Source: Pragia fontium DSM 5563 = ATCC 49100 (GTDB taxonomy: Bacteria > Pseudomonadota > Gammaproteobacteria > Enterobacterales > Enterobacteriaceae). Taken from it: a stretch of 64,000 nt of DNA. Shown here piece after piece: positions 4,086-35,166 of the stretch. Location: NCBI RefSeq assembly GCF_900112475.1, contig NZ_FOLW01000012.1, forward strand, positions 1 to 64,000. Direction: 5' to 3'. The translations under genes were made by a program, and so were the position numbers. The notes under the pieces were generated by a model that was not told the DNA's origin, ran no database searches, and saw nothing but the letters and a program-made list of their open reading frames with translations. The number at the start of each line of letters is the position of its first letter. Position 1 is the stretch's first letter.

Positions 4086-4161
4086 GCCCGGATAGCTCAG
4101 TCGGTAGAGCAGGGGATTGAAAATCCCCGTGTCCTTGGTTCGATTCCGAGTCCGGGCACCA
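4086..4161 (+). tRNA. tRNA-Phe (anticodon GAA)
   Basis: The 76-nt gene starts GCCCGGATAGCTCAG and ends with an encoded CCA. The acceptor arms GCCCGGA and TCCGGGC pair perfectly. The anticodon stem GGGGA/TCCCC encloses TTGAAAA with GAA at 4119-4121, and the T-arm carries GGTTCGATTCC. It agrees with the E. coli tRNA-Phe sequence as I remember it. The location downstream of dsbD, and the repeats that follow, make it a likely past integration or recombination site. Confidence 0.98.
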
Positions 4162-14091: not shown

Positions 14092-14133
14092 TATAATAAA
14101 TAACAACACCCTACAGATAAAAAAGGAACAACA

Positions 14134-17173: not shown

Positions 17174-17711
17174 TTACTCTGCGTTTTCTTTCTTATATTT
17201 GTATTCCGGATGCGTTTTGTTTAGTTCGTTTCGTAGTTCGCCGTTGTGACCGATGGTCACGTGGCAAGAAACACAGGCAACCGGATTCTCTGTTTGTTGC
17301 AGTACCTTATAATGCTGATGCATTTGCTGAGATTTAAAGCCATTTTCCTGCGCCTTATCCAACAGCGTTTTATGACACTCCAAACAACCCGAATCATAAA
17401 CAAACGACTCTCGAAGCTTTCTGTGTGACAACCAATCAATTTTATCAGCGTCGGTAAACACCACCTTCACCACATCATTAATGCCCTGTGTACCTTTAGA
17501 CACCAGATAATTCAAGGTACTAGGTTGTTACCATGGGTTGCATCACATGGCATTCACCACAAAACGCCTCACCGCCCGTTAGTTTTACGACTTCGGTCGT
17601 CAACAGCGCAATGCCACAGCTAATCAGGCCAACAACCAGTAAGGTGTTTAAAAATGGCGCATTTGACCTGCTGGAGAAACCCGTTGAAGCAAAAATCTTG
17701 ATTGATACCAT
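17174..17711 (-). pseudogene. Broken NapC/NrfH-family tetraheme cytochrome c
   Basis: Two adjacent minus-strand frames give parts of one protein. Bases 17711-17520 encode a membrane anchor (FLNTLLVVGLISCGIALL) and the first heme site GGEAFCGECHVMQPMV. Bases 17515-17174 continue with NYLVSKGTQGINDVVKVVFT, IDWLSHRKLRE and two heme sites, CLECH and CVSCH. NapC/NirT/NrfH proteins pass quinol electrons to periplasmic reductases and have four hemes. Here the segment that should carry the second CxxCH (about 30 residues) is deleted and the frame is shifted at about 17515-17520. The first 15-20 residues are also foreign, being antisense of a response-regulator gene. Not functional. Confidence 0.85.
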
Positions 17712-17997
17712 CCATAATGCCTTGGCTCTCAGTGAACACCGTGCTCAGTATCAACAAAAAAATCAGACGTTACGTACCAAATTTTCACGACTCACTGTAC
17801 GAGAAAAACAGATCCTGCATTTAGTTCTGGCTGGCTACACTAACAAAATGACTGGCGATAAACTTTATCTGGCGTTACGCACAGTAGAAATTCACCGCCA
17901 TAATATGATGAAAAAGATGGATAGTGATTCTCCGGTGCAATTAGCGCAACAGTTATCCCGTTATCCTGAGTTTAATGAATTATTCCTGATACCATAA
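17650..17997 (+). pseudogene. C-terminal fragment of a FixJ/TtrR-type response regulator
   Basis: From about 17650 the plus strand encodes NGAFDLLEKPVEAKILIDTI, the end of a receiver domain with the conserved KP. A LuxR-type helix-turn-helix follows (LTVREKQILHLVLAGYTNKM, LALRTVEIHRHNMMKKM). The phosphorylated Asp and most of the receiver are missing, because the frame upstream reads antisense through the cytochrome pseudogene. The fragment resembles TtrR encoded at 61282-61887 but is clearly different. It is probably the regulator of a lost respiratory gene cluster. Even if transcribed, it lacks a start and regulation. Confidence 0.82.
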
Positions 17998-18828: not shown

Positions 18829-19875
18829 ATGCTTCAATATTTAATTTTCCCATCGATTTGTTGCTTAATTATATTATTAATCACCAGAAAAATAGCGATT
18901 AATATTGGCTTGGTAGATAAACCAAACGATAGAAAACATCATCATGGTCATATACCATTAGTTGGCGGAATCGCTATTTACATCTCTATTTTTCTGGCTA
19001 GTCTCTTTATATTAAATACACCCTCTACGCCTAATATAATGGCTTACTTATTGGGTGCGTTCTTACTCTTGTCCGTAGGTATTCTTGACGATTATATCGA
19101 TTTACCGGTCTTACCACGCGTTGCGGCACAGGCTCTGGCGGCTATATTTTTGATGATTGACGGCGTTTATCTGCATTCATTAGGCAATCTGCTCGCTGAT
19201 AATATTCTTATTTTGGGCTCTTTTGGCTATTTGATTACGCTATTTGCCACTTGGGCGGCCATTAATGCTTTTAACATGACCGATGGAATTGATGGACTGC
19301 TCGGCGGGCTCACTTGTGTCTCCCTGATCTCATTAGCGATTTGTTTCGCTCTGGGTGGTCAAGAGGACTTAATGATCTGGTGCTTGTGCCTAACGGCTAT
19401 CGTTGTTCCCTATTTAATACTTAACCTCGGATGGCCGTTTGGCAAAAGCTTGAAAGTATTTATGGGTGATGCGGGCAGTACGCTAATAGGGTTTACCATC
19501 CTTTGGCTACTGTTGCTAGCCACTCAGGGAGAAAACGCGGTTATCAATCCGGTCACCGGATTGTGGATCATCGCCCTACCGCTGATGGATATGGTATTGG
19601 TCATGATTCGTCGTATCAAACAGGGTAGTAGTCCATTTAAACCAGACCGAAGTCACTTACACCATATTCTGATGCAACAAGGTTTAACCGACCGACAAAC
19701 GCTTGCCAGCATTATCATGCTGGCGCTATTCATCGCTGGGTTGGGTATCTTGCTCGAACAAATCCATGTAGGAGAATCACTTTCTCTGATTTTATTTCTA
19801 TTTTTGTTTATGGGTTATTCCTACGTATTAACTCAATTACAACGCCAACATCAAAATAACCTAAAAAAAGCATAG
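18829..19875 (+). CDS. Undecaprenyl-phosphate sugar-1-phosphate transferase, WecA-like
   Basis: The 348-residue polytopic membrane enzyme of the MraY/WecA family transfers GlcNAc-1-P (or a related HexNAc-1-P) to undecaprenyl phosphate and so starts each repeat unit. Family blocks in order: GLVDKPNDRKHHHGHIPLVG, LLSVGILDDYIDLPVLPR (metal-binding DD), WAAINAFNMTDGIDGLLGG, VFMGDAGSTLIGF, and the C-terminal cytoplasmic DRSHLHHILMQQG (HxHH sugar-recognition motif of WecA-type enzymes). It is close to E. coli WecA (367). Because it lies in an EPS cluster away from the ECA genes, it is probably a paralogue dedicated to this polymer. RBS AGAGAG precedes the ATG. Confidence 0.9.
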   Translation: MLQYLIFPSICCLIILLITRKIAINIGLVDKPNDRKHHHGHIPLVGGIAIYISIFLASLFILNTPSTPNIMAYLLGAFLLLSVGILDDYIDLPVLPRVAAQALAAIFLMIDGVYLHSLGNLLADNILILGSFGYLITLFATWAAINAFNMTDGIDGLLGGLTCVSLISLAICFALGGQEDLMIWCLCLTAIVVPYLILNLGWPFGKSLKVFMGDAGSTLIGFTILWLLLLATQGENAVINPVTGLWIIALPLMDMVLVMIRRIKQGSSPFKPDRSHLHHILMQQGLTDRQTLASIIMLALFIAGLGILLEQIHVGESLSLILFLFLFMGYSYVLTQLQRQHQNNLKKA

Positions 19876-19998
19876 TGCGACCTTCAATTCGCTAGCTCAA
19901 CACTCAACATGTCATCCAACGTCAACTTAAATCATCAATTTCGCGTTCAAATTTACCAGACCCAATGTTGATTGATCGTGTATTCAGGTATTTATGGA

Positions 19999-21195
19999 AT
20001 GAAAATAAGAACAACAATAATTAGCTCTTTTATCAGTACAATGATGCTATTAAATGGCTGCACCGTTGAACCAGGTAGCCAACTTCCCACGTCAAATAAA
20101 ACCATTATTGAATCATCCGATACAGAGTTTGATATCAACGACCGAGTCAATGTTTATCCTATTACGCCTCAATTAATCGAGGATATGCGGGTTAATCCTA
20201 TTACAGCTCAAGCTAACCCTGATCTGGATCGTGAACTGCAACACTATGAATATCGCATTGGTGTCGGCGATATTCTGATGGTAACGGTATGGGACCATCC
20301 AGAATTAACTACCCCGGCCGGCCAATATCGCAGCGCCAGTGATACCGGAAATTGGGTTCATTCCGACGGCACCATTTTTTATCCTTATATCGGAAAGCTC
20401 TATGTCAAAGACAAAACCATGCCTCAGGTACGATCAATCATTGCCAAAAAATTAGCTCAATTTATTGAATCTCCACAGGTTGATGTCAGTATTGCCGCCT
20501 TTCGGTCTCAAAAAATTTATGTTACTGGCGAAGTATCGAAAACCGGTCAGCAGGCCATTAGCAATATTCCCCTCACCATCATGGATGCGTTAAATCAAGC
20601 GGGTGGTTTAACCGAACATGCCAATTGGCGCAACGTCACCCTCACCCGACAGGGGGAAAAATATCCAGTATCTCTACAGGCGCTGATGCAAAACGGCGAT
20701 CTGACACAAAATCGTTTACTGCACGATGGGGATATTCTCTATATTCCGCGCAATGACGATCTGAAAGTCTTTGTTATGGGGGAAGTGAAAACACCAAGCA
20801 CACTACTGATGGATCGCAGTGGCATGACATTAACCGAAGCTTTGGGAAATGCAAACGGCATCGACCAAGCCCTTAGCGATGCCAGCGGTATTTTTGTTAT
20901 CCGCTCGCTACAAGGTAGTAATAAACCAGAGAACGTTGAGCAAGTTCAAGATAATGACGAAGACGAGAGCGAGATCCACTATCAAAAACTTGCCAATATT
21001 TATCAACTTGATGCAAAGGACGCTACTGCACTGGTATTAGGCACCGAATTTCAACTACAGCCCTATGACATTGTTTATGTTACTACAGCTCCAGTTTCTC
21101 GCTGGAATCGTGTTATTAGTCAGCTAACTCCAACTATTACCAATATTAACAGCATAACCGAGACCACCCGTTGGATAAAAAATTGGCCACAATAG
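19999..21195 (+). CDS. wza: Polysaccharide export outer-membrane lipoprotein Wza
   Basis: The 398-residue lipoprotein forms the octameric outer-membrane channel for group 1-type polysaccharides. A lipobox LLNGC (Cys21) follows a signal peptide when translation starts at 19999. The body has [71 protein letters not shown] (SLBB) and [19 protein letters not shown], nearly as in E. coli Wza, and ends with the amphipathic segment near RWIKNW. An upstream TTG at 19972 is in frame but would push the signal peptide inward. An acidic insert (QDNDEDESE, about residue 318) replaces a short loop. It pairs with the Wzc kinase encoded next; the usual wzb phosphatase gene between them is missing. Confidence 0.93.
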
Positions 21196-21371
21196 TGATT
21201 AACTCAATGCCGAGTAGTTTGTCTCGGTCATATTTATCGTTCTGCTATCGATAAATAGTTTCTGCAAATTTAATAAAAACCAGCATAAATATAAGTAAAT
21301 GTATTCATCTAAATAAAAATTATTAGCAAAAATAAAGTTTAGGTCGACCCGTCAGGATTAAAGGAATAAGC

Positions 21372-23513
21372 ATGGTAAGCACTCAAAAAAACGTCAATAA
21401 TAATTGGAAAGAAAATGGGGAGATCCACCTAGGTAAAATTATCGGAACCATTGTTGATCATAAAAAATTCATTCTCATCATCACTCTATTTTGTACCACA
21501 ATCGCTATATTTTATAGTTTGCTTGCCACACCAATCTATAGAGCAGATGTACTGATTCAAATAGAAAAAAACACACAGGACAATATATTAAGTAACTTCT
21601 CTGACATACTCTCAGATGATAAGCCTCAATCCGCTGCGGAAATGGAATTACTTAAATCAAGAATGGTAATGGGAAAAACCATCGACGATCTTAATCTCGA
21701 TATACAGGTTTCAGAAAAGAGCTATCCGATTATCGGCAGAGTCATCAACCTACTACAAAAAAAACCAGCTACAACTATCGTGGTGTCAAAACTAGAAATA
21801 CCCGAGTCTATATATGATGAGGAATTAATATTAACTGTTCTGCCCGATGACCACTATAAAATAACCTCAAATAATATTGAGATAAACGGACAAGTCGGCG
21901 TCATCAAAAAACAGAATGAATACACTATTCTAATTAGTGATATTGATGCTGCCGTTGGCACCGAATTTCGTATCAAGCGGTTAGATAAAATTACCGCTGT
22001 TAATAATCTGCTGGCGAATTTTTCGGTCTCTGATACAACAAAAGACAGTGGTGTATTGAAGCTTAATTTTAAAGGCAGAAATAAACATGAAATCCGAAAA
22101 ATCCTCGATAACATCAGCAATAATTATCTGCAACAAAACATTGAAAGAAAATCAGCTGAAGCCGCTAAAAGCCTGGATTTTTTAAATCAGCAACTGCCAC
22201 TGATAAAACAACAATTAGAAGAAGCGGAAGGTAAGCTCAACCAATTTAGACAAACTCATGAATCTGTCGACTTAAATTTAGAAGCAAAGTCCACGTTAGA
22301 ATCTACTGTTGCGATCACATCTCAGCTCAACGAGGCTATCTTTAAAGAAGCTGAAATATCTAAATTGTATACCAAAGAACACCCGGCCTATCGATCGCTG
22401 CTGGAGAAAAAGGAAGCATTACTACAAGAGAAAAACATTCTTAATCAACGAATTGCTAACCTTCCTAAAACCCAGCAAGAAATTCTTCGCCTGACCAGAG
22501 ATGTACAATCAGGCCAAGAAATTTATGTGTCACTATTAAATAAGCAACAAGAATTGAATATTAATAAAGCCAGTAAAGTTGGCAATGTTAGAATCATCGA
22601 TAAAGCAGTTACTCAACCAGATAAAATAAAGCCAAATCCGCCGGTCATTATTGGATTAGCGTTCACCCTGAGCCTACTGCTATCTATTGCCTTGATATTG
22701 GGTAGAGAATACTTCAGACGGTTTATTAATGACTCCACACAACTAGAAAGCCTTAATATTAATATTTATGCTAATATTCCCTTGTCTAAAGCGGAATCCA
22801 AAAAAAACAAAGAAATTCAATCTGATAAAAACACAAATCACATTAAATTACTGGCAGTAAAGCACCCTACCGATCCCGCTATTGAAGCCATTCGTAGTTT
22901 AAGAACCGCGCTCCATTTTGCTTCACAGAATACACTCAATCGGATACTGATGGTCATTGGTGCAACTCCAGGTGTAGGGAAGAGTTTTGTTAGTAGCAAT
23001 CTTGCTGCCGTTGTAGCCAATTCCGGTAAAAAAGTGCTGCTTATCGATGCAGATATGAGAAAAGGCAGTTTGCATAAATCATTTGGCAGAACGCCGGAAA
23101 ATGGCCTCTCTGATATTCTATCAAATAGAAAAGAGATCGCTGATTGCCTATATAACACCCCTGTAGAAGGGCTCGATTTTCTTCCCAGAGGCACCGTGCC
23201 CCACAATCCATCAGAACTATTAATGAATGAATATTTAGCCGAATTACTATTATGGGCAAATAGTCACTATGATCTAGTGATTATGGATCCCCCTCCAACG
23301 TTAGCCACAACAGATTCAACCATAATAGGAAAATATTCTGGTATGAATATTATTATTGTTCGCTTTGAAAAAAATACCATTAGCGAAATTGAATCTTCCA
23401 TTAAGCGTCTTGAACAGAGTGGAGCGATGATTAATGGCGTCGTATTGAATGCTATCCAAAAAAGGGCCGCTAAACATTATAGCGATGGGAGTTATGAATA
23501 TTATATCTATTAA
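21372..23513 (+). CDS. wzc: Polysaccharide copolymerase/tyrosine autokinase Wzc
   Basis: The 713-residue inner-membrane BY-kinase controls chain length and export together with Wza. Two membrane helices flank a large periplasmic Wzz-type domain: LIITLFCTTIAIFYSLLA (about residues 36-53) and PPVIIGLAFTLSLLLSIALI (about 420-440). The cytoplasmic kinase has Walker A GATPGVGKS (530-538), Walker A' KVLLIDADMRKG and Walker B DLVIMDPPP. A Tyr-rich tail at the very C-terminus (YSDGSYEYYIY) is the autophosphorylation cluster. It lies in the wza-wzc order of group 1/colanic-type systems but without wzb. An AGGAATAAG sequence precedes the ATG. Confidence 0.92.
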   Translation: MVSTQKNVNNNWKENGEIHLGKIIGTIVDHKKFILIITLFCTTIAIFYSLLATPIYRADVLIQIEKNTQDNILSNFSDILSDDKPQSAAEMELLKSRMVMGKTIDDLNLDIQVSEKSYPIIGRVINLLQKKPATTIVVSKLEIPESIYDEELILTVLPDDHYKITSNNIEINGQVGVIKKQNEYTILISDIDAAVGTEFRIKRLDKITAVNNLLANFSVSDTTKDSGVLKLNFKGRNKHEIRKILDNISNNYLQQNIERKSAEAAKSLDFLNQQLPLIKQQLEEAEGKLNQFRQTHESVDLNLEAKSTLESTVAITSQLNEAIFKEAEISKLYTKEHPAYRSLLEKKEALLQEKNILNQRIANLPKTQQEILRLTRDVQSGQEIYVSLLNKQQELNINKASKVGNVRIIDKAVTQPDKIKPNPPVIIGLAFTLSLLLSIALILGREYFRRFINDSTQLESLNINIYANIPLSKAESKKNKEIQSDKNTNHIKLLAVKHPTDPAIEAIRSLRTALHFASQNTLNRILMVIGATPGVGKSFVSSNLAAVVANSGKKVLLIDADMRKGSLHKSFGRTPENGLSDILSNRKEIADCLYNTPVEGLDFLPRGTVPHNPSELLMNEYLAELLLWANSHYDLVIMDPPPTLATTDSTIIGKYSGMNIIIVRFEKNTISEIESSIKRLEQSGAMINGVVLNAIQKRAAKHYSDGSYEYYIY

Positions 23514-23585
23514 TATTAAAGATATAATATTAAAGATGATTGTTATCAAACAATCATCTTTAACAAAAAGAGATTAGCTTAAATA

Positions 23586-24629
23586 ATGTCCATCCCAAAG
23601 AACACAATACTTTATATTATTCTGATAAAAATAGTGTACTCTTTTTTAGCAGTTTTTGTATTTTCTCAGTTTTCGTCTCTGGGAGATACCGATGATTATC
23701 TGAATGGCCATTATTTACATCGCAGTGATTTTTCCAGCACGGCCTATCTTATGTCCGTTATTGGTTCATCACTGGGTTCTCTCGGCAGTTTTTTATTCTC
23801 GATTATATTATCTATAATCGGTATTCTCTATATGCTGGAGAAAGCAAATCTTCAACATAGGACATTACCCCTTGTTTTATTGCTTATTGCTTTACCCTCT
23901 TTTGGGGTGTGGACGTCCATATTTTCTAAAGAAATATTTGTACTCTTCTCATTTTGTATTTGCGTAGGCGGGCTGATAGATCAACTCAATGATAAAAGAA
24001 AGTTTTTCTCCATCTTTCAAATTTTTGCATTACTATTATTGACCTTTATTAAGCCCCATTACTCTATTACAATTTACTTTTCCATGTTAACAATATTATT
24101 TTACAAAATTGGAATAAAATCTGAACTTTCAATCAGTTTAAATATAGTTGTATTTTGCTTAGTTATTTTAATATCAATGCATTATATCGATTCAATATTT
24201 GAATACTCTCAAATCATGCCAAAACATTTCTCATCAGATGGTGGAACAACCCGGAAAAATGAATTTTGGCATAATGAGTATGATTTTTTTACCTTTATGC
24301 CAATTGGCCTTCCTATGGCCTTCAGCGGACCAACATTAGTTGAAGCAATCAATAATGTAAAACTATTTCCATTCTTTTTTGAAGGCACTTTCCTATTTAT
24401 TTTATTAGTCTATTACAACTTAACATCCATAATAGTCAGAAAAAAAGTCAATACGCTTGCGCTATCATTATTTTTTTCTTTCACCTGTATGATACTAATA
24501 ACTCACTATCCTTTTGGTTTGTTTAATGCCGGTTCAGCAATGAGATATCGTTCAGGATTTATCCTTCCTATGTGCGTATTCTTAATTTATATGAAACAAT
24601 ATGTCACACAAGGCAGCGCTAAAAATTAG
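23586..24629 (+). CDS. Polytopic membrane protein, candidate Wzy polysaccharide polymerase
   Basis: The 347-residue protein is nearly all hydrophobic helices, with loops containing FSQFSSLGDTDDYLNGHYLH and, near the C-terminus, LFNAGSAMRYRSGFILPM. Wzy-type polymerases are poorly conserved and are recognised mainly by about ten membrane segments, a large periplasmic loop and their position in an EPS cluster. All three hold here, and no other gene in the cluster could be the polymerase. The arrangement GSAxRYR near the last helices is, as I recall, seen in several putative EPS polymerases. The assignment rests on context rather than on a decisive motif. The coding sequence is AT-rich. Confidence 0.65.
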   Translation: MSIPKNTILYIILIKIVYSFLAVFVFSQFSSLGDTDDYLNGHYLHRSDFSSTAYLMSVIGSSLGSLGSFLFSIILSIIGILYMLEKANLQHRTLPLVLLLIALPSFGVWTSIFSKEIFVLFSFCICVGGLIDQLNDKRKFFSIFQIFALLLLTFIKPHYSITIYFSMLTILFYKIGIKSELSISLNIVVFCLVILISMHYIDSIFEYSQIMPKHFSSDGGTTRKNEFWHNEYDFFTFMPIGLPMAFSGPTLVEAINNVKLFPFFFEGTFLFILLVYYNLTSIIVRKKVNTLALSLFFSFTCMILITHYPFGLFNAGSAMRYRSGFILPMCVFLIYMKQYVTQGSAKN

Positions 24630-24635
24630 CCTCAA

Positions 24636-25862
24636 TTAAGCTATATTTTTACTTTCAATTTTTCGATAAATAATAAAGTAACAGATGGCAAATAAAAACC
24701 GGGCAAACACAAACATGATAATTGCACCAACAACGCTAAAAAAGTAAATCATCACATAGCCAAAAATTGCTGATAATACAGAAACAAACAAGGATATGTT
24801 TCTAAATTCCCTGTCCAAACCTCTGGCAAGAAAATAGCCATAGGAGAAAGAGCTCAATATGCCATTAAATAAAATACCCATCGAAAGATAAGTTAAGTAT
24901 AGAGAAGCATTGGTGTAGCCAGGTCCAAGAAAAATATTCACTAAAGCATCACCAAAAAGAATAATGGCAATAATCGGCGGCAAGGAAAGTAGCACATTCA
25001 TCAACAGTAAGGCCTTAAGGGTTCCTTTCCCTTTAACAATCACTGGATAAGCCGCTTTCGATAACATTAATTGAATAGAACCCGCAATGCCAACTAACCG
25101 CATCGCAATAGAATAACTGGCATAGATAGCAGGAGTTGTAAAAGCGCCAATAATCAACAAAGGGATATTACTGTAGAGGTTAGGTGAAAAATCGCCAATA
25201 AAACTATCAAAACCGGACTTTATCTTTCCTAACGTATGGGTAAAGTTAATACTTTCTTTTACGCCAATTCGTTTATATCGATATATAGAGATAACAATGC
25301 CAGTAATAATAAAAACTAAAGCATTAGACATAATGGCATAAGATAAATCATCCGTAGATTTTACAAATAAAAATATCGTTGATATCTGGACTATTCTGGC
25401 AATTAAGGTTGATAACGCGAGGAATTTCATATTTGAAGTTCCCTGATGAAACCATGGCGCAGTTAAATAATAGCCAAAAATACTAATAATATAATATGAA
25501 AGCACGAATAAGACAGTTTGATCACTGGTTGAATAGAGTGTGTAGACAGTAAAAATCACTAGCGAAAAAACCCCAAAAACAAATCTAATCGACTGAGTAT
25601 AAGAATATATTTTCTGCTGGTCTGACTTATTCTGAGCAAGTGCCACATCCCTGACACCGGTAATGTTAGTACTGTAATCGGTTAAAATAATGGAAAATGT
25701 TGATGCCGCAATATAGATAAAATAGATCCCATAACACTCAGGCCCCAGTACTCTTGATAGATAAGGCATAGTTATTAGAGTTACTAAAAGATTGAGAATA
25801 TTTATTGAGGAAAGCCCCATAAAATTAGAAACAGTTTCTTTATATTTGGACAGCTTTCTCAT
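24636..25862 (-). CDS. wzx: Wzx-type oligosaccharide flippase (MOP superfamily)
   Basis: The 408-residue protein has about 12 membrane helices. Its N-terminus is typical of O-antigen/EPS flippases of the polysaccharide-transport branch of the MOP family: NFMGLSSINILNLLVTLITMPYLSRVLGPECYG. It should flip undecaprenyl-linked repeat units to the periplasm for polymerisation. The start at 25862 (MRKLSKYKE) is preferred to an upstream TTG. It is the only gene of the cluster on the minus strand and is convergent with the polymerase candidate (6-base gap). It therefore cannot be read from the ops-controlled transcript and needs its own promoter between 25863 and 25987. This orientation is unusual for Wzx/Wzy loci. 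Confidence 0.85.
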   Translation of the reverse strand: MRKLSKYKETVSNFMGLSSINILNLLVTLITMPYLSRVLGPECYGIYFIYIAASTFSIILTDYSTNITGVRDVALAQNKSDQQKIYSYTQSIRFVFGVFSLVIFTVYTLYSTSDQTVLFVLSYYIISIFGYYLTAPWFHQGTSNMKFLALSTLIARIVQISTIFLFVKSTDDLSYAIMSNALVFIITGIVISIYRYKRIGVKESINFTHTLGKIKSGFDSFIGDFSPNLYSNIPLLIIGAFTTPAIYASYSIAMRLVGIAGSIQLMLSKAAYPVIVKGKGTLKALLLMNVLLSLPPIIAIILFGDALVNIFLGPGYTNASLYLTYLSMGILFNGILSSFSYGYFLARGLDREFRNISLFVSVLSAIFGYVMIYFFSVVGAIIMFVFARFLFAICYFIIYRKIESKNIA

Positions 25863-25987
25863 AATTATAACCAAATTAATATGAAGTTATCAATATTATA
25901 ACTTTTTTCACCTGATATGTAATGAATATTTCTGGCGATGAAAAATTTAGATGCCGACATTAAAATTATCTTAATTTAAGGAAAATT

Positions 25988-27352
25988 ATGATCATCATAA
26001 ATCCGCTAAATATAGCATCATCAGAGGCCTCTATTCGGTCAATGGGATTAATCATAAAATCTGATGCTATATTTAACGAAAGCCTAACCACTCGGCTATA
26101 CCTTTGTTACTTTAATAATGACATTATTATTTCTGAAAACGTCAGCGAACTGGTAGATAAAATCGATGCAGAAATTGATCGGGATGCCGCTGAATTTTAT
26201 ATCAGGTATGGTTTTATATTTCCGCCATTCACCCTATATAAAAACATTTTTCTTATGTCTGCCTATACTGGATTTTCTCTATCAAAACCACTCGAAACGT
26301 GCACTATTCTTCCCGAAAAACCACTACCCGCGGAAGAATCGCGAAACTACTCAGCAAACGTTCAAGATGATTTAATTACGTCGCTAGAAAAAAACTCAGG
26401 GAAATACAACGTATTATTCAGTGCTGGCGTTGATTCATCCGTTCTGTTGGGTATGGCTATTCAACTGGATAAAGCCGAAAACGCAATAAATTGTTTTATG
26501 TCATCCATGCCCGAGGAAAGTCATAAAGCCAAGAAAATGTGTGAATTAAAAGAGATTCCTATTCAAACAATTTCTGTCAGACACGATCTGGAAAATCAGG
26601 CAAATGAATTTTTGAATATCACATCTGAACCGATCTCCGATAAAATCGCATTAGTTATCCCGACCATTATCAACGACCTCAATTTAGATAAAAGTCTTTT
26701 TATTCTTGATGGGCAAGGGGCTGATTCACTCTTCTCTGGCCTACCTCATGATAAATTATATAACTTATATCATAAAAAATTAGTGCGCCTTATTGCCAGA
26801 CCATTCTCTATTTTACCCATATGGGAAAATAAAAAAACCAGAGCTGGCCGCTTATTATACCGGATCACTAAAGTGTTAAAATGCCTCTCATCAACATCAG
26901 ATGAAGAACTACTGGCCCACTCTCTTGTTGAGGAGAGTGATAAAAAAATCAGTAGTAACAATAAAATACTCCAGCAATTCTATAGCGAAATAAACATATT
27001 GAAAAAAGAGCTAAAAGACTTCCATTTAGTTATTCGGTATATATTTATGTTTAGAATATTACCAGCCAGAGAAATGCAAAAATATATTTTATCTCAGCAA
27101 CAAGGGTATCAATTTAAACTACCTTTTTTAGAGACTGATTTTATTAAACGTCATTTCTATATTTCCAGTAATCAATCAATCATTGATAACATATACAAAT
27201 ACCCCATGACTAAGCTAGCTAAGCATTACTGGCCAGGCTTTTTTAAAGACAGTAAAACCAGCCCTTTTCAAGTCGATTTCAATACAGGAAGTCTCGGCAT
27301 AAAAGAATTATCTTTAAATCACATATCAATAAAAACAAAATCGCCTCTTTAA
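25988..27352 (+). CDS. Asparagine-synthase-like amidotransferase of the EPS cluster
   Basis: The 454-residue protein has the asparagine-synthase C-terminal domain: PP-loop LFSAGVDSS (residues 143-151) and the acidic block FILDGQGADSLFSG typical of AsnB-like ATP pyrophosphatases. The N-terminal region (1-125) resembles a vestigial class II glutaminase fold but starts MIIINP, lacking the Met-Cys start whose Cys2 is the glutaminase nucleophile, so ammonia would have to come from elsewhere. Homologues in surface-polysaccharide loci are thought to amidate hexuronic acids. Ugd, encoded 1.3 kb downstream, supplies the uronic acid. Proposed role: converting a GlcA or GalA residue to its amide. An unrelated ligase role is possible. 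Confidence 0.75.
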   Translation: MIIINPLNIASSEASIRSMGLIIKSDAIFNESLTTRLYLCYFNNDIIISENVSELVDKIDAEIDRDAAEFYIRYGFIFPPFTLYKNIFLMSAYTGFSLSKPLETCTILPEKPLPAEESRNYSANVQDDLITSLEKNSGKYNVLFSAGVDSSVLLGMAIQLDKAENAINCFMSSMPEESHKAKKMCELKEIPIQTISVRHDLENQANEFLNITSEPISDKIALVIPTIINDLNLDKSLFILDGQGADSLFSGLPHDKLYNLYHKKLVRLIARPFSILPIWENKKTRAGRLLYRITKVLKCLSSTSDEELLAHSLVEESDKKISSNNKILQQFYSEINILKKELKDFHLVIRYIFMFRILPAREMQKYILSQQQGYQFKLPFLETDFIKRHFYISSNQSIIDNIYKYPMTKLAKHYWPGFFKDSKTSPFQVDFNTGSLGIKELSLNHISIKTKSPL

Positions 27353-27466
27353 TAAAATAAAAAAACCTTAATACCCCATTTCAAACCTGAACTATTTTCA
27401 CTGTTAAATATTTATACAAATTCAAAATCAACCTAATTAATTTGCATGGAAAAAGGGAGATTCATC

Positions 27467-28615
27467 ATGTTCAGGAAAAATAGAAAGTACACTATCGCTA
27501 TCACCGCAAATACCAGTTGGTATTTGTATAACTTTAGAAGGAATACAATAAACTCATTGCTCGACATGGGTTATAACGTTGTCGCTATTGCACCAAGAGA
27601 TAATTATTCAAAACAACTCTCATCGTTAGGATGTCGATATATTCCAATAGACATAGATCAGGGAGGCATGAACCCAATAAAAGACTTCATTACCATATTA
27701 AAAATGGCGATGGTTCTTTACAGAAATCAATTTAATATAATATTAAACTTCACACCAAAAAATAATATTTACTTTTCTATTTTGGCTAAAACATTCAATA
27801 TCGGCGTAATCAATAACATTGCCGGATTAGGCATTATCTTTGTAAAAAAAGGCTTTATTTCCAGACTTTGCACATTACTTTACAAATTTAGCCAACGCGA
27901 TGTCGATAAGATATTTTTTCAAAATGAGGATGACCGAACGTTATTTCTTAAAGAGATTATTCCTGACGCTGAAAAAACCGATCGTGTGCCAGGTTCCGGC
28001 GTTGATTTAACGCGATTTTCAGTCAAAGAAGCCCCTGATGATGGCGTGGTCAGATTCATTCTGGTAGCCAGAATGCTCTATCATAAAGGCATTGAACAAT
28101 ATGTCGAGGCAGCCCGACAGTTAAAAACAAAATATGGTGATCGATGTGAATTCAGATTGCTTGGTTTTGTCGATATCAATAATCCTGCCGCAGTTGCAAA
28201 AGAAAAAATAGAAACCTGGGTCAATGACGGCATTATTAATTATCTGGGCGTTTCCGATAACGTTGAGCAGGAGTTATCTATTGCTGACTGCGTCGTTTTA
28301 CCTTCATTTTATCGGGAAGGGGTACCTAAATCACTGTTGGAAGCCGGTGCCATGGGCAAACCCATAATAACAACCCGCAACGTAGGCTGTCAGGAAACTG
28401 TTGATGATGACTATAACGGCTTCCTGTGCGAACCTCAATCGACTGAAAGTTTAATCGACGCTCTTGAACGAATGATTAGCTTATCCCATAAAGAACGGCT
28501 GGCAATGGGGCTTAACAGCCGTAAAAAAATCGTGCGGGAATTCGATGAAAATATTGTGATCGAAAAGTATATAGAATCCATTGGAATCTTACTCAAGAGG
28601 GAACTCTATCAATGA
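27467..28615 (+). CDS. Family 4 glycosyltransferase
   Basis: The 382-residue GT-B enzyme has an N-terminal acceptor domain ([38 protein letters not shown]) and a C-terminal donor domain with [20 protein letters not shown] and the GT4 E-x7-E motif in [20 protein letters not shown]. It would add a sugar from a nucleotide donor to the lipid-linked acceptor made by the WecA-like enzyme. The start at 27467 is chosen because GGGAGA (27455-27460) is six bases upstream; an ATG at 27446 lacks such a site. It is the only glycosyltransferase seen in the cluster, which points to a very short repeat unit or to extra enzymes elsewhere. The stop overlaps the ugd start by 4 bases. Confidence 0.88.
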
Positions 28616-29781
28616 AAATCGCTATCGCAGGTACCGGCTATGTTGGCCTGTCAAATGGGATCTTACTGTCTCAACACCATCAGGTGGTTGCTCTGGATAT
28701 TGATGCCCGCAAGGTCAATCTGTTAAATAACGGGACATCACCTATTGTTGACCAACTTATCGAAGATTATTTAAAAAATAAGACGCTAAATTTTAAAGCT
28801 ACGCTGGATAAGCATGAAGCCTATCAGGATGCGGACTTTGTTATCGTCGCTACCCCAACGGATTACAACCCCGAAACTAACTACTTTAATACTTCATCCA
28901 TTGAGAGCGTAATACAGGACGTTCTGGCCATTAATCCGCACTGCGTCATTATCATTAAGTCGACGGTGCCCGTCGGATATACCCGGAAGTTAAAAGAATC
29001 CCTTAACGCCGACAATATCATCTTCTCACCAGAGTTTTTACGGGAAGGTAAAGCATTATTCGATAATCTTCATCCTTCACGCATTATCATTGGTGAGCAG
29101 TCTGAGCGAGCCCGTCTGTTTGCCGATTTATTGCAACAAGGCGCCATTAAACAGGATATCCCGGTTTTGTTAACTGACTCGACCGAGGCCGAAGCCATTA
29201 AGCTATTCTCCAACGCTTATCTGGCGATGCGCGTAGCCTATTTTAATGAGCTGGATAGCTATGCCGAATCACACAACCTATGCCCCCGCCAAATTATCAA
29301 TGGCGTTAGTCTGGATCCACGCATTGGTAATCACTACAACAACCCGTCATTTGGTTACGGTGGGTATTGCCTGCCGAAAGATACCAAACAGCTTTTGGCG
29401 AACTATCAAGATGTGCCTAACAATATTGTTTCCGCTATTGTGGAAGCGAATCGTACCCGCAAAGATTTTATTGCCGATGCTATTCTCAGCCGAAAACCTA
29501 AGACCGTAGGTATCTACCGACTGATTATGAAAAGTGGTTCCGATAATTTTCGCGCTTCCTCTATTCAGGGAATTATGAAGCGTATCAAAGCCAAGGGAGT
29601 CAATGTGGTAGTTTATGAACCCACATTGCAAGAGCCGGTATTTTTCCACTCTAAAGTGGTCAATGACCTCAATGAATTTAAAGCGCTGTCAGATGTGATT
29701 ATTTCCAATCGTATGGCTGAAAAACTGGCGGATGTGCAGGATAAGGTCTATACCCGGGATCTGTTTGGACATGACTCATAG
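28612..29781 (+). CDS. ugd: UDP-glucose 6-dehydrogenase
   Basis: The 389-residue enzyme oxidises UDP-glucose to UDP-glucuronate with two NAD. It is close to E. coli Ugd along the whole length: [16 protein letters not shown] (NAD-binding), [25 protein letters not shown], and [19 protein letters not shown] with the catalytic Cys at residue 253, then [15 protein letters not shown]. It supplies the uronic acid for the EPS, and possibly for lipid A or colanic-type modification elsewhere in the cell. It starts with a 4-base overlap with the glycosyltransferase gene, a sign that it belongs to the same operon. Confidence 0.96.
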
Positions 29782-29812
29782 TGGAAGCAGTTGGCTTTGA
29801 TGGCGGGTGTTT

Positions 29813-29844
29813 GGAACAGAGGTGATACATCTCACCGCTGTTCC
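29813..29844. terminator. Bidirectional hairpin between ugd and autotransporter
   Basis: GGAACAG (29813-29819) and GGTGA (29821-29825) pair with TCACC (29832-29836) and CTGTTCC (29838-29844), giving a 12-bp stem with one internal mismatch and a 6-base loop. It lies between the convergent ends of ugd and the autotransporter gene and probably ends both transcripts. Confidence 0.65.
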
Positions 29845-29873
29845 AGTGGCTAAATTTAGTTAACCATCAATCA

Positions 29874-31814
29874 TCAAAACCGAATTCTGAATCCAGCATC
29901 AACCCTGACTGGGGTTTCAACTTTATTACCGTTTTGATAATCCACTTCCGCATACACCGAAGCATGGTTGGTAATAGCAGCATCAAGACCTAAACCGTAT
30001 TTCCCAACGTTACCGGAAAAGTTGTTATTGAAGCCAATGTCATTGATGTCCACTTTATTCGACTTGATAAATTCACGGGCAACGGCCAGTTTCGCGTAAG
30101 GCTTAACCAGCATTTGTCCTGATGAAAACTGGGTACTGAATAATGTGCCAAGTTCCCCCTGAACGCTGTCAGCATTATCAATATGCGCATTCATCCCATT
30201 ACTTAAGGTGTAATTCGCACTACCAATGTTTGAATACTGAACTTTGGCATAAGGTTCTATGGCATAAGTTTGATAAAGCGGAATATTAAAACCACTCTCC
30301 AATGACGCGGTAATCGCATTCTGACTATAGCTACCGGTTCCCGTATTGCCACTGCTCATTTGAGTACGGATTTCATTACTCAAGTGATTACCTTTCAGAA
30401 CGGAATCAATATAGAAACCGGAGATATCCAGATAGGTCAGATAAGCACCGCCACCGTAGCTTCTGATTTCACCATTACCGCCATTATCAAACTTAACGTC
30501 AGAATTACTGTAGGAAGTAAAAACACCAACCAGCAGTTTGCTCTGATTCAAATCAATCTGCTTGTCACCGCCAATTTCCAATCCGTTTAAGGTGTTCTTG
30601 AAAGAAGTATGCTTGTTATCAGAAAGACGGCTGGTATCGTTGGTATAACGAACCCATACTCCGGCATTTCCCGCTTTATCGAGGCTCAAATCACCCTGAC
30701 GTTGGCGAAGGGTGGATAACTCAGCCGATAAGATATGGCGTGGTGCCGCAGCCATATTAAGAACCCCTTTTGCACTTGAGCTCAGCGTTCTATTCACTGT
30801 TCCACTTCCATTTCCATTTCCATTTCCATTTCCCGCGGAGTTTGCATCCCCACTTTCTTGCAAGTCCTCAAGCTTTACCGGAACAGGATTCAAATACCAA
30901 TCGGTACTTTCACCAGACTTAGCGCTATACAATTTGTACTGATAAACACCCAGATCGACCACGTTATTGGCATTCAACAGGCTAAAGTTGGCATCGCCGC
31001 TATTAACATGAACCACCGTCAATGGTGCCGTCGTCTGTGGTTCTTTACCGCTATCATTCACCATCAGACCAAACTGACCCGTTGCCTTATTGGCAATATG
31101 AATAAAGTCACCCATTTTGTCCGCTAACTGAGTCGTGATGGCAAAATTACCCTGACCTGAAAGGTTATTGATCTCTAAACGATTAGGCTGTGCTGCTGGC
31201 GAATAGGCGATCAGGTCAACATATCCGTCCTGAAGAACGAGATTATTGATTTGAGTTATCAGGCTCGTTCCTTTCGTTGACGGCATTGGCGCAAAATCTT
31301 CCAGCTCTCCGTTTAGCCATGTCGGCCCGATTGAAACCGTACCGGCAACATTCAAGTTTTCGATGGTAATATTAGCTGCCTTGGCGGGGTTGTTAGTCGT
31401 GACATCGATAGCGGTGTGATCGGTATTACTGATAGATAGCTTTCCCCCCTGGGCTATATTCAAATAACCAATTGAACGGCTGTCGAAATACATATCCAGC
31501 GAGCCACCAGCATTAACCTGAGTGTTATTAATAACGCTATTCTCTACCGATAGTCTTCCATTTTGATCAACGGTGGTGTCATTGGCACGACCTTCATAAC
31601 GGATAAATATTGTTCCATTATCACGGACGATATTGTTATTGATAATACCGCCGTTCGATACTGATTGATTACCCTGCCCCGCCGTGTTTTCCGGTATTGA
31701 TACAATCTCATTGTTAACCGTAATTCCATCAACATTTTCTGTATAGGCAATTGCACCGCCTGAAAAACCTAAAAATGATGCGCCGATAATATAGGCAAGT
31801 AATGTTTTTTCCAT
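29874..31814 (-). CDS. Type Va autotransporter with short passenger (646 aa)
   Basis: The product has a signal peptide (MEKTLLAYIIGASFLGFSGGAIA) and a passenger of about 310 residues with beta-helix-type Asn/Gly-rich repeats (TVDQNGRLSVENSVINNTQV). A linker and then a C-terminal pertactin-type autotransporter barrel (about residues 370-646) follow, ending in VDAGFRIRF with the terminal aromatic required for outer-membrane insertion. The passenger tail VVHVNSGDANFSLLN is of the pertactin/AIDA C-terminal type. No protease or lipase catalytic motif is seen, so an adhesin or aggregation role is more likely. The linker holds a (Gly-Asn)n repeat encoded by tandem hexamers. RBS AAAGG lies upstream. 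Confidence 0.88.
   Translation of the reverse strand: MEKTLLAYIIGASFLGFSGGAIAYTENVDGITVNNEIVSIPENTAGQGNQSVSNGGIINNNIVRDNGTIFIRYEGRANDTTVDQNGRLSVENSVINNTQVNAGGSLDMYFDSRSIGYLNIAQGGKLSISNTDHTAIDVTTNNPAKAANITIENLNVAGTVSIGPTWLNGELEDFAPMPSTKGTSLITQINNLVLQDGYVDLIAYSPAAQPNRLEINNLSGQGNFAITTQLADKMGDFIHIANKATGQFGLMVNDSGKEPQTTAPLTVVHVNSGDANFSLLNANNVVDLGVYQYKLYSAKSGESTDWYLNPVPVKLEDLQESGDANSAGNGNGNGNGSGTVNRTLSSSAKGVLNMAAAPRHILSAELSTLRQRQGDLSLDKAGNAGVWVRYTNDTSRLSDNKHTSFKNTLNGLEIGGDKQIDLNQSKLLVGVFTSYSNSDVKFDNGGNGEIRSYGGGAYLTYLDISGFYIDSVLKGNHLSNEIRTQMSSGNTGTGSYSQNAITASLESGFNIPLYQTYAIEPYAKVQYSNIGSANYTLSNGMNAHIDNADSVQGELGTLFSTQFSSGQMLVKPYAKLAVAREFIKSNKVDINDIGFNNNFSGNVGKYGLGLDAAITNHASVYAEVDYQNGNKVETPVRVDAGFRIRF
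30806..30834 (-). repeat. In-frame hexamer microsatellite in autotransporter linker
   Basis: TTCCAT is repeated four times in tandem, then TTCCC, on the plus strand. On the coding strand it specifies alternating Gly-Asn residues between the passenger and the barrel. Slippage would change linker length by two residues per unit without shifting the frame. Confidence 0.8.
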
Positions 31815-31970
31815 GATGTTTACCTTTGTAACTCCTGTTGTTTTATAAAAATCTTATTGTATTAATCCATTATATAAATGGTATTACCCGCCTGATGACA
31901 GCAGGTACGGACTTCGTTTGCCGATTACTGTGATGGTGGTTGGCTGGGGTAGATTGGTTTTACGGCCAGT

Positions 31971-32063
31971 CAACTGGTGATGATGACCAGTGAATGGGGA
32001 CGGTTGGTTATTTAAGTTGATATTAATTTTTGATGGTTAAAACAAAACTCCCAGTATTTTAGC
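31971..32063 (-). repeat. Post-immunity-gene repeat, copy 1
   Basis: About 90 bases resembling copy 2 at 32431-32525. Shared blocks include GGTGA.GAT.AC, GGGGACGGTT, ATATTwa, and A.AAC/AAAATCCCAGT.TT...AGC. The repeat lies directly 3' of the frameshifted immunity gene (minus strand), as copy 2 lies directly 3' of the Imm42-like gene. Such repeats could mark cassette boundaries. Confidence 0.6.
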
Positions 32064-32555: not shown

Positions 32556-33107
32556 TTAAAGACTAGAGTAGAAATTTATTGTGGAGTCAACGATATCTTT
32601 TACAATCTCTTTTTTTAAGATTACATCGCTAATATGCGGATCATTTATATCAATCCAATGGTAACCTATATCACCATCACCGCTCAAAGTACTAAGCTTT
32701 GCCCCTAAAATTCTAATCATATCTTTGAAAGAAACAGCAAAAACATAACAACAGTCATCTTCTAAATTATATGTAGATGCTTGGTATTGATAAGATGTAA
32801 CAAAATCATCAGAAACTTCGATTTCCGGATCTACTCGTTCAGGTAACATTGTGCCCAACAGAAAGAAAAACGCCTCTTTCTTTCCCATATTGAAAATATC
32901 CTCACTTGTTATAGGTAAGACCAAGGCATTTCCATTAGATAAACAAGATATATCACCACCCAATGTAGCCACTCTAGCACTATCTGGATACATTCGTCCG
33001 TCTATACAAAAATGAAATAAACCATTCTTAAAGCTCCCTTGCACCTCACTCCACTGAGGTAAGTATTCAATAAGAATAGCAAAATGATTAGGATCACCAA
33101 AAACCAT
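32556..33107 (-). CDS. Imm42-like immunity protein for orphan CdiA tip
   Basis: The 183-residue cytoplasmic protein begins MVFGDPNHFAILIEYLPQWS and has NGLFHFCIDGRMYPDSARV, features I associate with the Imm42 family of immunity proteins. The start at 33107 is chosen because GGAG, provided by the last codons of the upstream toxin frame (TGG AGA TAG), sits seven bases before it. The ATG at 33119 lies inside the toxin frame. The 2-base gap to the toxin stop suggests translational coupling, as in normal cdiA-cdiI pairs. It should neutralise the toxin domain at the end of 33110-34372. The family name is from memory and should be verified. Confidence 0.7.
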   Translation of the reverse strand: MVFGDPNHFAILIEYLPQWSEVQGSFKNGLFHFCIDGRMYPDSARVATLGGDISCLSNGNALVLPITSEDIFNMGKKEAFFFLLGTMLPERVDPEIEVSDDFVTSYQYQASTYNLEDDCCYVFAVSFKDMIRILGAKLSTLSGDGDIGYHWIDINDPHISDVILKKEIVKDIVDSTINFYSSL

Positions 33108-33109
33108 AA

Positions 33110-34372
33110 CTATCTCCATTTCCCTGGCAAACCAAGGATTTTTTTAACATCTGATGGAATATCTTTCTTACTTACGGCTGCGCTTTTATCACCCGTACTA
33201 CCAGACCAATGCCACGTTCCATCATTAGTATTAGTAAATTGGTGCACATTACCATCACTATCTAAAGCATATCTCTTTTTGCCACTAGCCACTGAATTAC
33301 CAAATAACTTAATAGAATCTTTAGGCTCAGTTCCTGCATTACGATGATATCCCATCTGCCCTGGAGTATGTTTGGGATTCGATACATAATTTAACCCATT
33401 GGAGGCTGGAATTGCTGTTGGAGTTGGCAGCGAACTCCCTTTAGCCGACTGATTCTTACCAATCACTCCCAACGCCGCTAAACCATAGCCACCATTAATA
33501 ACAGCCTTCAGTCCTATCTCTTCAAGCGCTTCCTTACCGTTTAGTGCTAGCTTCACATAACTCGGCAAAGACTGGTAAATAGCTCTTGCGCTATCTTCGT
33601 TCTCTGCTAAAACAAAACGATCGAGTTGAGCTAAATCTTCACTGCTTAAATCAGAAAATATAGGTAAACGATTCAAGCTGTTAGCGATACTATTACCAGC
33701 TTGTATCTGTGCGAACTCAGCATTGGCACAAAACGGATCACCTGAACAACTTTCAGCGATAGCTTCTTCTCGATTTTTCTTACTGATTTCTGCATATTTC
33801 TCATAAATAGCTAATTTATCTTCGTCATTTACCTCTGCCTTTATCAGTTCCTTATGCATATCCAAGACATTCTTGGAGCTCAGCGAATTATTCTCCACCT
33901 CAACCCGAGCAGCATTACCTCCACTGGCGATTGACAGTCCATCACCACCGGCCATACCGCCTGCCGCTGAACCCAACATCGTGACCAGATTGCTAATCAG
34001 CGTCTTCTCATCGCCGACCAACTCTGAGGCAGGTTTTCCATAAAACGCTTGCGCCAGCACATCTGAACTCGCGGCAGCAACCAGTCCACCCACCGCTGCT
34101 GCCCCCGGGTTCACACCCTGTGCTGAAGCCAACGCGCCAGAAACAATGGCATGTAACGCAATACGCGCCGCGTCATTACCTTTGGTCGCATCTTTTACCA
34201 GTGCCGCCATATAAGGCGCTGAGCCCGCGGCAAGACCACCGGTGACATTACCGCCCAATACGCCCGCCAGTAATCCGGTTGCCACCGAACCATGGGTCCA
34301 AAACTCACTGCCCACGCCGTACTGTTTATCCACCTCTTTATACTTATTTGAGGCGAAACCGAAGCTCCTCAC
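33110..34372 (-). pseudogene. Orphan CdiA C-terminal module (pretoxin + toxin tip)
   Basis: The frame has no signal peptide or TPS domain. Residues 6-163 repeat the pretoxin region of the complete CdiA (ASNKYKEVDKQYGVGSEFW through VENN at 159-162, about 99% identical in DNA). A different tip follows, ending with YHRNAGTEPKDSIKLFGNSV, KKRYALDSDGNVHQFTNTND, GTWHWSGSTGDKS and LGLPGKWR. This is the classical orphan cdiA-CT arrangement: silent cassettes that can replace the active tip by recombination upstream of VENN. The tip's catalytic family is not recognised. The nominal start is a GTG at 34372 after AGTGAGG; translation is doubtful. It is a cassette rather than a decayed gene. Confidence 0.8.
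33881..34355 (-). repeat. 475-bp direct repeat shared with cdiA pretoxin region
   Basis: Bases 33881-34355 match 36039-36513 at a constant offset of 2158 with only about five mismatches seen. The identity begins at the VENNSL codons and ends abruptly at GAGGCG/GAGGCAA. The pair is long and similar enough for homologous recombination, which would delete the intervening 2.16 kb and put the orphan toxin and Imm42-like genes onto full-length CdiA. Confidence 0.93.
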
Positions 34373-34641
34373 TTCAACAACCCACTAAAACACTTTATCC
34401 CAATATTGTTAAAGAGCAGACAACTGTAACAATGCTCAAACTAAAATTTCATTGTTATACAATTTATTACAAACCTGATAATAAACGTAGCCCCTATTCA
34501 CCATTAAGGAGATTTGATTCCTCACAGATAGTGTAGTAGTGATTAATATTGAGCAAGACCAGTTAATTATTAGACTTGCAATGCAGGTCTAGAGATTAGA
34601 AAAAAATAGCTCCCCCACAGAGAACAGAGGAGCTACGGTAA

Positions 34642-35166
34642 TTAAACAATAATTAATTCACCAGAATAATCAAAAGCCATATTTTTTATATAATGTCGAG
34701 TATCAGTACTCACTGAATGCCGCAAATATTCATAAAAAGTCTTATTTGTTGATTTTATCATTTCTTGATTTTCATCATAGTGATAAACCAGATCTACGTT
34801 ATCTGAATCAGTTAATAAAAAAAAGTACTGAGTTTCACTTTCAAATGAAAATATAAATGGTTTCTGTTTAACTAATTCCCATTGTTGCAATGAACATAGA
34901 TCTTCACAAAAAGAATATTGAAAAAGAATATGTGAGCGAACGCCGTTATTCTGCCTATAGAACATCAAAGGGTCATCCCCAAAAAAACCACCACTACACC
35001 GCCCCATACACAGTAAAAAATCATATAATTGTCCTTTCACCTTGATATCATAAAGGCGTTCAATTTTCTTAATTTCATCCACTGAATAGCCTTTTATATA
35101 ATTAATATCAATTAATAATTCAGGATAAGCTGAATGCAGGTAATTTATCAGTTCTTGATTTATCAT
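34642..35166 (-). CDS. cdiI: SUKH (SMI1/KNR4) family immunity protein CdiI
   Basis: The 174-residue protein has the SUKH-type block YSVDEIKKIERLYDIKVKGQ, then FLLCMGRCSGGFFGDDPL. SUKH proteins are frequent immunity factors for nuclease and deaminase toxins. The ATG overlaps the cdiA stop codon (ATGA, 35163-35166), so it is translationally coupled to the toxin, the standard cdiA-cdiI arrangement. It is inferred to bind and block the CdiA deaminase-like tip in the cytoplasm of the producing cell and its siblings. Confidence 0.85.
   Translation of the reverse strand: MINQELINYLHSAYPELLIDINYIKGYSVDEIKKIERLYDIKVKGQLYDFLLCMGRCSGGFFGDDPLMFYRQNNGVRSHILFQYSFCEDLCSLQQWELVKQKPFIFSFESETQYFFLLTDSDNVDLVYHYDENQEMIKSTNKTFYEYLRHSVSTDTRHYIKNMAFDYSGELIIV

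Follow-up and report, generated by a model that had tools for sequence, protein, structure and literature searches.

The gene at 25988-27352 of the window, that is, of the whole stretch of 64,000 nucleotides of Pragia fontium DSM 5563 = ATCC 49100 analyzed here, raises the question of what an AsnB-like enzyme does in a surface polysaccharide cluster when the catalytic cysteine of the class II glutaminases is missing from it. The original prediction was that this enzyme could amidate a hexuronic acid made by way of the Ugd of the same cluster, using free ammonia or a separate glutaminase, and so give an uncharged hexuronamide in the polymer. The gene and the parts of it discussed below are the following:

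25988-27352, plus strand: asn-like gene of the AsnB family (PF00733), 454 aa, no working glutaminase domain (ORF translation, family profiles)
25978-25982, plus strand: AAGGA resembling a ribosome-binding site, upstream of the asn-like ATG (sequence)
25988-26341, plus strand: N-terminal 118 residues, read as a putative shrunken class II glutaminase remnant with no Cys2 (weak structural match)
26420-26440, plus strand: PP-loop motif SAGVDSS, residues 145-151 (translation, five-member alignment)
26708-26728, plus strand: second pyrophosphate-site motif DGQGADS, residues 241-247, with Gln where AsnB has Glu or Asp

Reading frame and N-terminal half

The translated protein starts with MIIINP and carries the motifs SAGVDSS and DGQGADS. 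It belongs to the PF00733 superfamily (Asn_synthase over residues 139-431, 57.5 bits, gathering cut-off 21), which was matched in 5/5 homologues. Upstream of the ATG there are eight in-frame codons and then a TAA (25961-25963), and a gap of 113 bp separates the gene from the divergent wzx, leaving no alternative start that would supply Cys2. The claim that the protein lacks this cysteine was true but understated, since most of the glutaminase domain is gone. An ordinary AsnB with a missed start or a frameshift, which the odd N-terminus taken alone would suggest, was rejected given this stop, this gap and the occurrence of the same short form in five genomes, and is regarded as extremely improbable. 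The internal TAA reported for the match in Rahnella was its own stop codon at the edge of the match, and that ORF is intact (455 aa).

When the protein was compared with its own genome, the sole match was itself (E 0.001). The PF00733 search of the same genome also retrieved the canonical AsnB, as two hits on an ORF of 555 aa that starts with MCSIFG, and one further weak hit, on an ORF that we take to be MnmA.

The extent of the loss was estimated by several comparisons. Since the synthase match of the control AsnB starts at residue 211, about 118 residues of the asn-like protein stand in place of about 205 of AsnB. In the profile-profile alignment with five full-length AsnB proteins, the family aligned from column 154 of the AsnB profile onward, and TIGR01536 aligned to the protein from model position 148 of 517, scoring 43.4 bits against a curated cut-off of 267.1. 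Homologues, in which the original prediction had proposed to look for Cys2, showed a short glutaminase domain in the alignment of all five members, and the families GATase_6 and GATase_7 were matched in 0/5 of them (E up to 1) as against 5/5 AsnB controls. The Cys2 and class II glutaminase domain of a glutamine-hydrolysing asparagine synthetase are thus both absent.

A model of the N-terminal 118 residues alone reached a mean pLDDT of 85.5. TsnB9, carbapenam synthetase and beta-lactam synthetase were top-ranked for it, weakly (best E 0.012), and the best structural alignment gave a Z of 4.8 and an rmsd of 6.7 over 108 aligned residues. This segment may be what is left of the glutaminase domain, shrunken and no longer catalytic, a reading that is drawn mainly from its position, the profile alignment and the identity of the top-ranked folds, because the fold matches are weak. 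A separate glutaminase was also sought: none of the ten scanned ORFs, of which eight belong to the cluster and two lie upstream of it, matched a glutaminase family, and no such gene was recognised in the Budvicia and Rahnella blocks described below when their translations were read by eye.

Adenylating half, predicted fold and homologues

The adenylating half keeps its principal motifs. DGQGADS, K404 and the P-F-L stretch were invariant in the alignment of the five members, and the first Ser of SxGxDS was kept in four of them, being Gly in the metagenome-assembled genome (MAG) of Rikenellaceae. The original prediction had called the synthase motifs intact, and both are indeed present, but DGQGADS is modified: SGEGADE was found in 5/5 AsnB controls and DGQGADS in 5/5 of the short group, so that the acidic residue characteristic of AsnB is replaced by Gln throughout. 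Among 24 long-frame relatives from Bacteroidales, this position was occupied by Asp or Glu in 23, the 24th sequence being cut off before the motif. The Glu of SGEGADE, which we take to be residue 348 of E. coli AsnB, presumably matters for the formation of the acyl-adenylate. On sequence grounds, an invariant Gln in its place could mean altered or lost chemistry.

The full-length structure model was built from five sequences and had a mean pLDDT of 82.6; it was the only good one of five models, the other four ranging from 55.9 to 68.2. Its best Foldseek match was TsnB9 (7ylz; E 6.9e-10). In pairwise comparisons, in which Z values within 1 count as tied, the model was aligned with TsnB9 (Z 18.4, rmsd 4.7, 387 aligned), human asparagine synthetase (Z 18.1, rmsd 4.2, 322 aligned), beta-lactam synthetase (Z 17.5, rmsd 5.1, 343 aligned), carbapenam synthetase (Z 17.5, rmsd 5.1, 361 aligned) and E. 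coli AsnB (Z 16.2, rmsd 5.0, 334 aligned). The predicted fold is therefore of the AsnB type, and a shared fold alone proves no function. The likeness to AsnB in the PDB emerged from fold comparison only: the single-sequence search found no AsnB relative there, and the profile search gave nothing convincing (E. coli AsnB at E 0.14, TsnB9 at 2.8).

The five members come from the window genome, Budvicia (63% identity), Rahnella (48%), Psychromonas (39%) and the Rikenellaceae MAG (25%). The reading frames of the Budvicia, Rahnella and Psychromonas copies are intact, and their ATP-site motifs are kept. Such genes are rare. Matches were obtained in 3/392 genomes of the family at E 1e-10 (own, Budvicia and Rahnella), in 2/394 of the order at E 1e-15 (own and Psychromonas) and in 1/369 of the class at E 1e-15 (own), while another draw of the order at E 1e-10 returned 1/59, namely Psychromonas, from which the query itself had been taken. 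When 60 relatives were drawn and searched at E 0.001, three matches resulted: to the own genome, to Psychromonas and, weakly, to a full-length AsnB of 631 aa (E 8.5e-4). In the order of the MAG, 20/344 genomes matched at 1e-12, its own and 19 others. These 19 contained 24 matches, 23 of them on open frames of 590-687 aa and the remaining one on a 347-aa frame situated where a contig ends; by a script count, 21/24 start with MCG. At the limits used, no homologue was found in plasmids (protein search), in E. coli genomes (DNA search only) or in viral contigs (protein patterns). A scan of genome contigs detected no relative with the single protein and four with the alignment.

In a maximum-likelihood tree of 32 synthase domains, the five short proteins fell on one side of a branch with 100/100 support. 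The branch that parts them from AsnB is very long. The row of the Rikenellaceae MAG is also long, and its position within the group is unsure.

The polysaccharide cluster and the supply of sugars

The asn-like gene is encoded in a surface polysaccharide cluster, whose other genes in the window are:

18829-19875, plus strand: WecA-type initiating GlcNAc-1-phosphate transferase (TIGR02380, 413.1 bits against a cut-off of 326.05)
19972-21195, plus strand: wza, outer-membrane polysaccharide export protein (family profiles)
21372-23513, plus strand: wzc-like tyrosine autokinase/chain-length protein (under the Wzc equivalog cut-off)
23586-24629, plus strand: probable wzy polymerase (assigned only by position and conservation, no family being matched)
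24636-25874, minus strand: wzx flippase (PF01943)
27446-28615, plus strand: PglA-like GT4 glycosyltransferase (family profile, structure match)
28612-29781, plus strand: ugd, encoding UDP-glucose 6-dehydrogenase and sharing 4 bases with the GT4 gene

The presence of Ugd in the same cluster was thus confirmed; its product scored 346.3 bits with TIGR03026 (cut-off 189.8) and 712.7 with the equivalog PRK15057, just under the 757 required. The GT4 is the sole glycosyltransferase recognised in the block besides the initiating enzyme. Its nearest solved structure is an alpha-1,3-GalNAc transferase, presumably PglA, and its gene lies beside the asn-like gene in each of the four gammaproteobacterial genomes (in Psychromonas as a fragment only). 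In the E. coli O158 and CP53 clusters, related GT4 genes were found that adjoin or lie close to ugd-type genes and epimerases. The ten ORFs scanned contained neither an aminotransferase nor any other amino-sugar family, and they contained no B-protein peptidase of the lasso type.

The block wza-wzc-wzy-wzx (opposite strand)-asn-GT4 is common to the three enteric genomes. Identities to the window in Budvicia and Rahnella, respectively, were 72 and 62% for wza, 64 and 41% for wzc, 73 and 54% for wzy, 75 and 55% for wzx, 63 and 48% for the asn-like gene, and 82 and 64% for the GT4. The chromosomal flanks differ, with an rsmI-like gene in Budvicia, and mltC and an Orn/Lys/Arg decarboxylase gene in Rahnella. 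Only the Rahnella block has, between wza and wzc, a gene for a wzb-type low-molecular-weight phosphotyrosine phosphatase (14081-14536 of that locus); the wza-wzc interval of the window (21195-21372) has no room for one. The Psychromonas asn-like gene lies between two transposase genes, and the adjoining GT4 fragment is 59% identical to the GT4 of the window. In the Rikenellaceae MAG, a GT2 gene is located just upstream of the asn-like gene, near the contig end.

Over the kilobases 23000-27999 the GC content was 31-37%, as against 43-45% over 28000-31999. Acquisition of the asn-like block is likely on sequence grounds rather than proven, because GC also varies upstream of it (27-45%). A tRNA-Phe gene is present in the window at 4086-4161, about 15 kb upstream of the cluster, and others were seen near the Rahnella block (19125-19200 of that locus) and near the CP53 E. 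coli cluster with the related GT4 (14526-14601 of that locus); tRNA-Phe genes are possibly common entry points for such islands.

Other loci surround the cluster. Upstream, at 17174-17997, a 154-aa LuxR-type regulator ORF corresponds to response regulators that are longer, and only to their C-terminal part, while an ORF of 113 aa on the opposite strand matches part of a NapC/NirT cytochrome; both are probably gene remnants. Directly downstream of ugd and convergent with the cluster is a pertactin-type autotransporter gene (29874-31814, minus strand). A locus resembling those of contact-dependent inhibition (32556-44528, minus strand) encodes a filamentous haemagglutinin of 3121 aa with TPS and PT-VENN domains, followed by a weak SUKH_6 match (23 bits, cut-off 27), an orphan PT-VENN module and an Imm42 immunity protein.

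The claim that Ugd supplies the uronic acid was upheld in part. It fits the window cluster, and a UDP-glucose-dehydrogenase-like protein was found in 4/4 gammaproteobacterial genomes (above the TIGR03026 subfamily cut-off and below the equivalog cut-offs). However, the Budvicia and Rahnella blocks contain no ugd and, on reading of the translations, no wecA, and the UDP-glucose dehydrogenases of these two genomes are on contigs other than that of the block. An obligatory partnership was rejected at the level of the block: as ugd is adjacent to the asn-like gene in the window only, it is not a conserved partner. In Psychromonas, a ugd 74% identical to that of the window and an epimerase-like gene are located about 13 kb from the asn-like gene. 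The window genome and Budvicia carry a second Ugd-like gene beside what we take to be galU and a nucleotide-sugar epimerase gene, and the epimerase of the window genome is 66% identical to that of Psychromonas. A route through UDP-GalA would be conceivable on this basis, and it is put no higher because no NCBIfam model was matched at 1e-60 by any of the three epimerases that were compared. In addition, UDP-ManNAc dehydrogenase was detected in all three enteric genomes (818-825 bits against a curated cut-off of 459).

Proposed function and comparison with known systems

In the chemistry of the superfamily, a carboxylate is adenylated and then attacked by a nitrogen. The best explanation, to which we give a probability of about 0.48, is that the asn-like protein is catalytically active as an amide ligase of the asparagine synthetase superfamily, does not depend on glutamine and modifies the polymer of the wza/wzc/wzx/wzy cluster. 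Its PP-loop domain would bind ATP-Mg and adenylate a hexuronic acid at its C6 carboxylate, either in the repeat unit or in a precursor, this acid being GlcA or, by epimerisation, GalA; a nitrogen nucleophile would then displace AMP to form the amide, and Wzx, Wzy and Wza/Wzc would flip, polymerise and export the amidated polymer. With its glutaminase half reduced to a stub, the protein cannot itself hydrolyse glutamine to supply this nitrogen, and we slightly prefer an amino acid or another organic amine to free ammonia. In favor of this explanation are the match to PF00733 in all five members with none to the GATase families, the invariant motifs, the AsnB-type predicted fold, the conserved block, the position of ugd in the window cluster and about 13 kb away in Psychromonas, and the precedents for amides in surface glycans. 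Against it are the lack of ugd from the blocks of Budvicia and Rahnella, the invariant change of the AsnB acid to Gln, a model built from five sequences that was good in one case of five, and the failure of the PDB single-sequence search to find AsnB; the closeness of the GT4 to an alpha-1,3-GalNAc transferase speaks against a uronic acid in the repeat.

One branch of the best explanation, counted within it, has free ammonia or the ammonia of a separate glutaminase as the nucleophile, giving a primary hexuronamide; this branch as a whole is rather unlikely. Hexuronamides are known products of AsnB-family enzymes in polysaccharide clusters, as described in the available part of PMC7468200, and canonical asparagine synthetases and the related PesC also take ammonia, according to an excerpt of PMC13060819. 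However, the ten ORFs scanned in and just upstream of the cluster matched no glutaminase family, none was recognised in the translations of the Budvicia and Rahnella blocks, and the shortness of the glutaminase domain throughout the five members would fit a change of nucleophile no less well. Activation of another acid, such as an amino acid, a hydroxy acid or ManNAcA instead of GlcA or GalA, for instance to acylate an amino sugar, was considered rather unlikely: the location of ugd outside the Budvicia and Rahnella blocks, the GalNAc transferase nearest to the GT4 and the UDP-ManNAc dehydrogenases argue for it, whereas the ugd of the window cluster and that of Psychromonas, together with the lack of aminotransferase and amino-sugar families in the scanned ORFs, argue against it. 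The very long branch from AsnB, the invariant change from acid to Gln and the Gly at the first PP-loop Ser of the MAG would also suit a dead, structural or regulatory relic, or a PP-loop enzyme of other chemistry; this is improbable, given that copies of 63, 48 and 39% identity still have intact frames and retain the ATP-site motifs.

The amidation of a hexuronic acid was supported in part: the setting and the enzyme class fit an amide-forming enzyme of a surface polysaccharide, but a primary hexuronamide was not singled out. It is one of at least two possible products, because the known makers of hexuronamide bear a glutaminase, ugd lies outside the block in Budvicia and Rahnella, no glutaminase family was matched in the ten ORFs scanned, and the best-known relatives that lack a working glutaminase, the beta-lactam and carbapenam synthetases and the lasso cyclases, use an amine and not ammonia. 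A further reading, rather unlikely, is that the five members form a separate class of surface-glycan ligases which join an amino acid or another amine to a uronic acid, and in which the AsnB fold is combined with a miniaturised non-catalytic glutaminase domain and an active site switched from acid to Gln.

Among known systems, asparagine synthetase B shares the fold of the synthase domain and the PP-loop with the asn-like protein, which differs from it in having no GATase match, no Cys2, a Gln in SGEGADE and a TIGR01536 score far under the cut-off. The beta-lactam and carbapenam synthetases are AsnB-like enzymes with an inactive glutaminase-like domain that join an amine to an adenylated carboxylate, and a catalytic Tyr-Glu dyad reportedly belongs to their type. 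The asn-like protein resembles them, on the predicted model and the profile search, in its AsnB fold and in the loss of the glutaminase active site. In contrast, their N-terminal domain is larger, the aligned range reaching residue 213-218 as against 118 residues, and they act on antibiotic precursors, whereas the asn-like gene sits in a polysaccharide cluster. The TsnB9 hydroxyamidotransferase was the best Foldseek match, yet it has 576 residues and 12% identity, and it serves a different pathway.

To our knowledge, the ligases that form uronic acid amides are mostly unassigned, apart from WbpS/WbqG and the serinol-phosphate ligase of Campylobacter. Enzymes of the WbpS/WbqG type keep Cys2. 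In the available part of PMC7468200, WbpS, WbqG and PGN_1234 are AsnB-family enzymes of surface-glycan clusters that form carboxyl amides of uronic acids, PGN_1234 by a mutant presented there and WbqG by citation, and the makers of hexuronamide are a different AsnB group, one that bears a glutaminase. The asn-like protein shares the superfamily and the type of cluster with them and is nearest to them in its proposed function, but it is not one of them: compared by profile, it scored 34.7 bits with TIGR03108 (eps_aminotran_1) against a cut-off of 816.9, and it has no GATase match. In Campylobacter HS:19/HS:02, HS19.11C/Cj1438C are described in an excerpt of PMC13276843 as forming, in an ATP-dependent manner, the amide of GlcA with an organic amine, serinol phosphate, in a GlcNAc-GlcA polymer, a chemistry like that proposed for the asn-like protein. 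The b-Cool locus contains an asparagine-synthase gene, for which the portion available of PMC12407052 describes no separate test, and its glycan has two GalNAcAN residues. Uronic acids amidated with ammonia, serinol or many amino acids are listed for many bacterial surface polysaccharides in the accessible portion of PMC10609480; glycine, alanine, serine, lysine, glutamic acid or serinol occurs on those of E. coli O91, Haemophilus type d, P. mirabilis O28 and O27, Klebsiella K82 and S. boydii O8. The portions available of PMC7198725 and PMC7305143 contained nothing on such a glutaminase-less enzyme. The rare and compact block described here offers a single defined gene and a repeat unit that is probably small, and may be useful for probing a switch of nucleophile from ammonia to an amine; an amine-joining class, if true, would make the amino-acid amides of many enterobacterial polysaccharides accessible to genetics.
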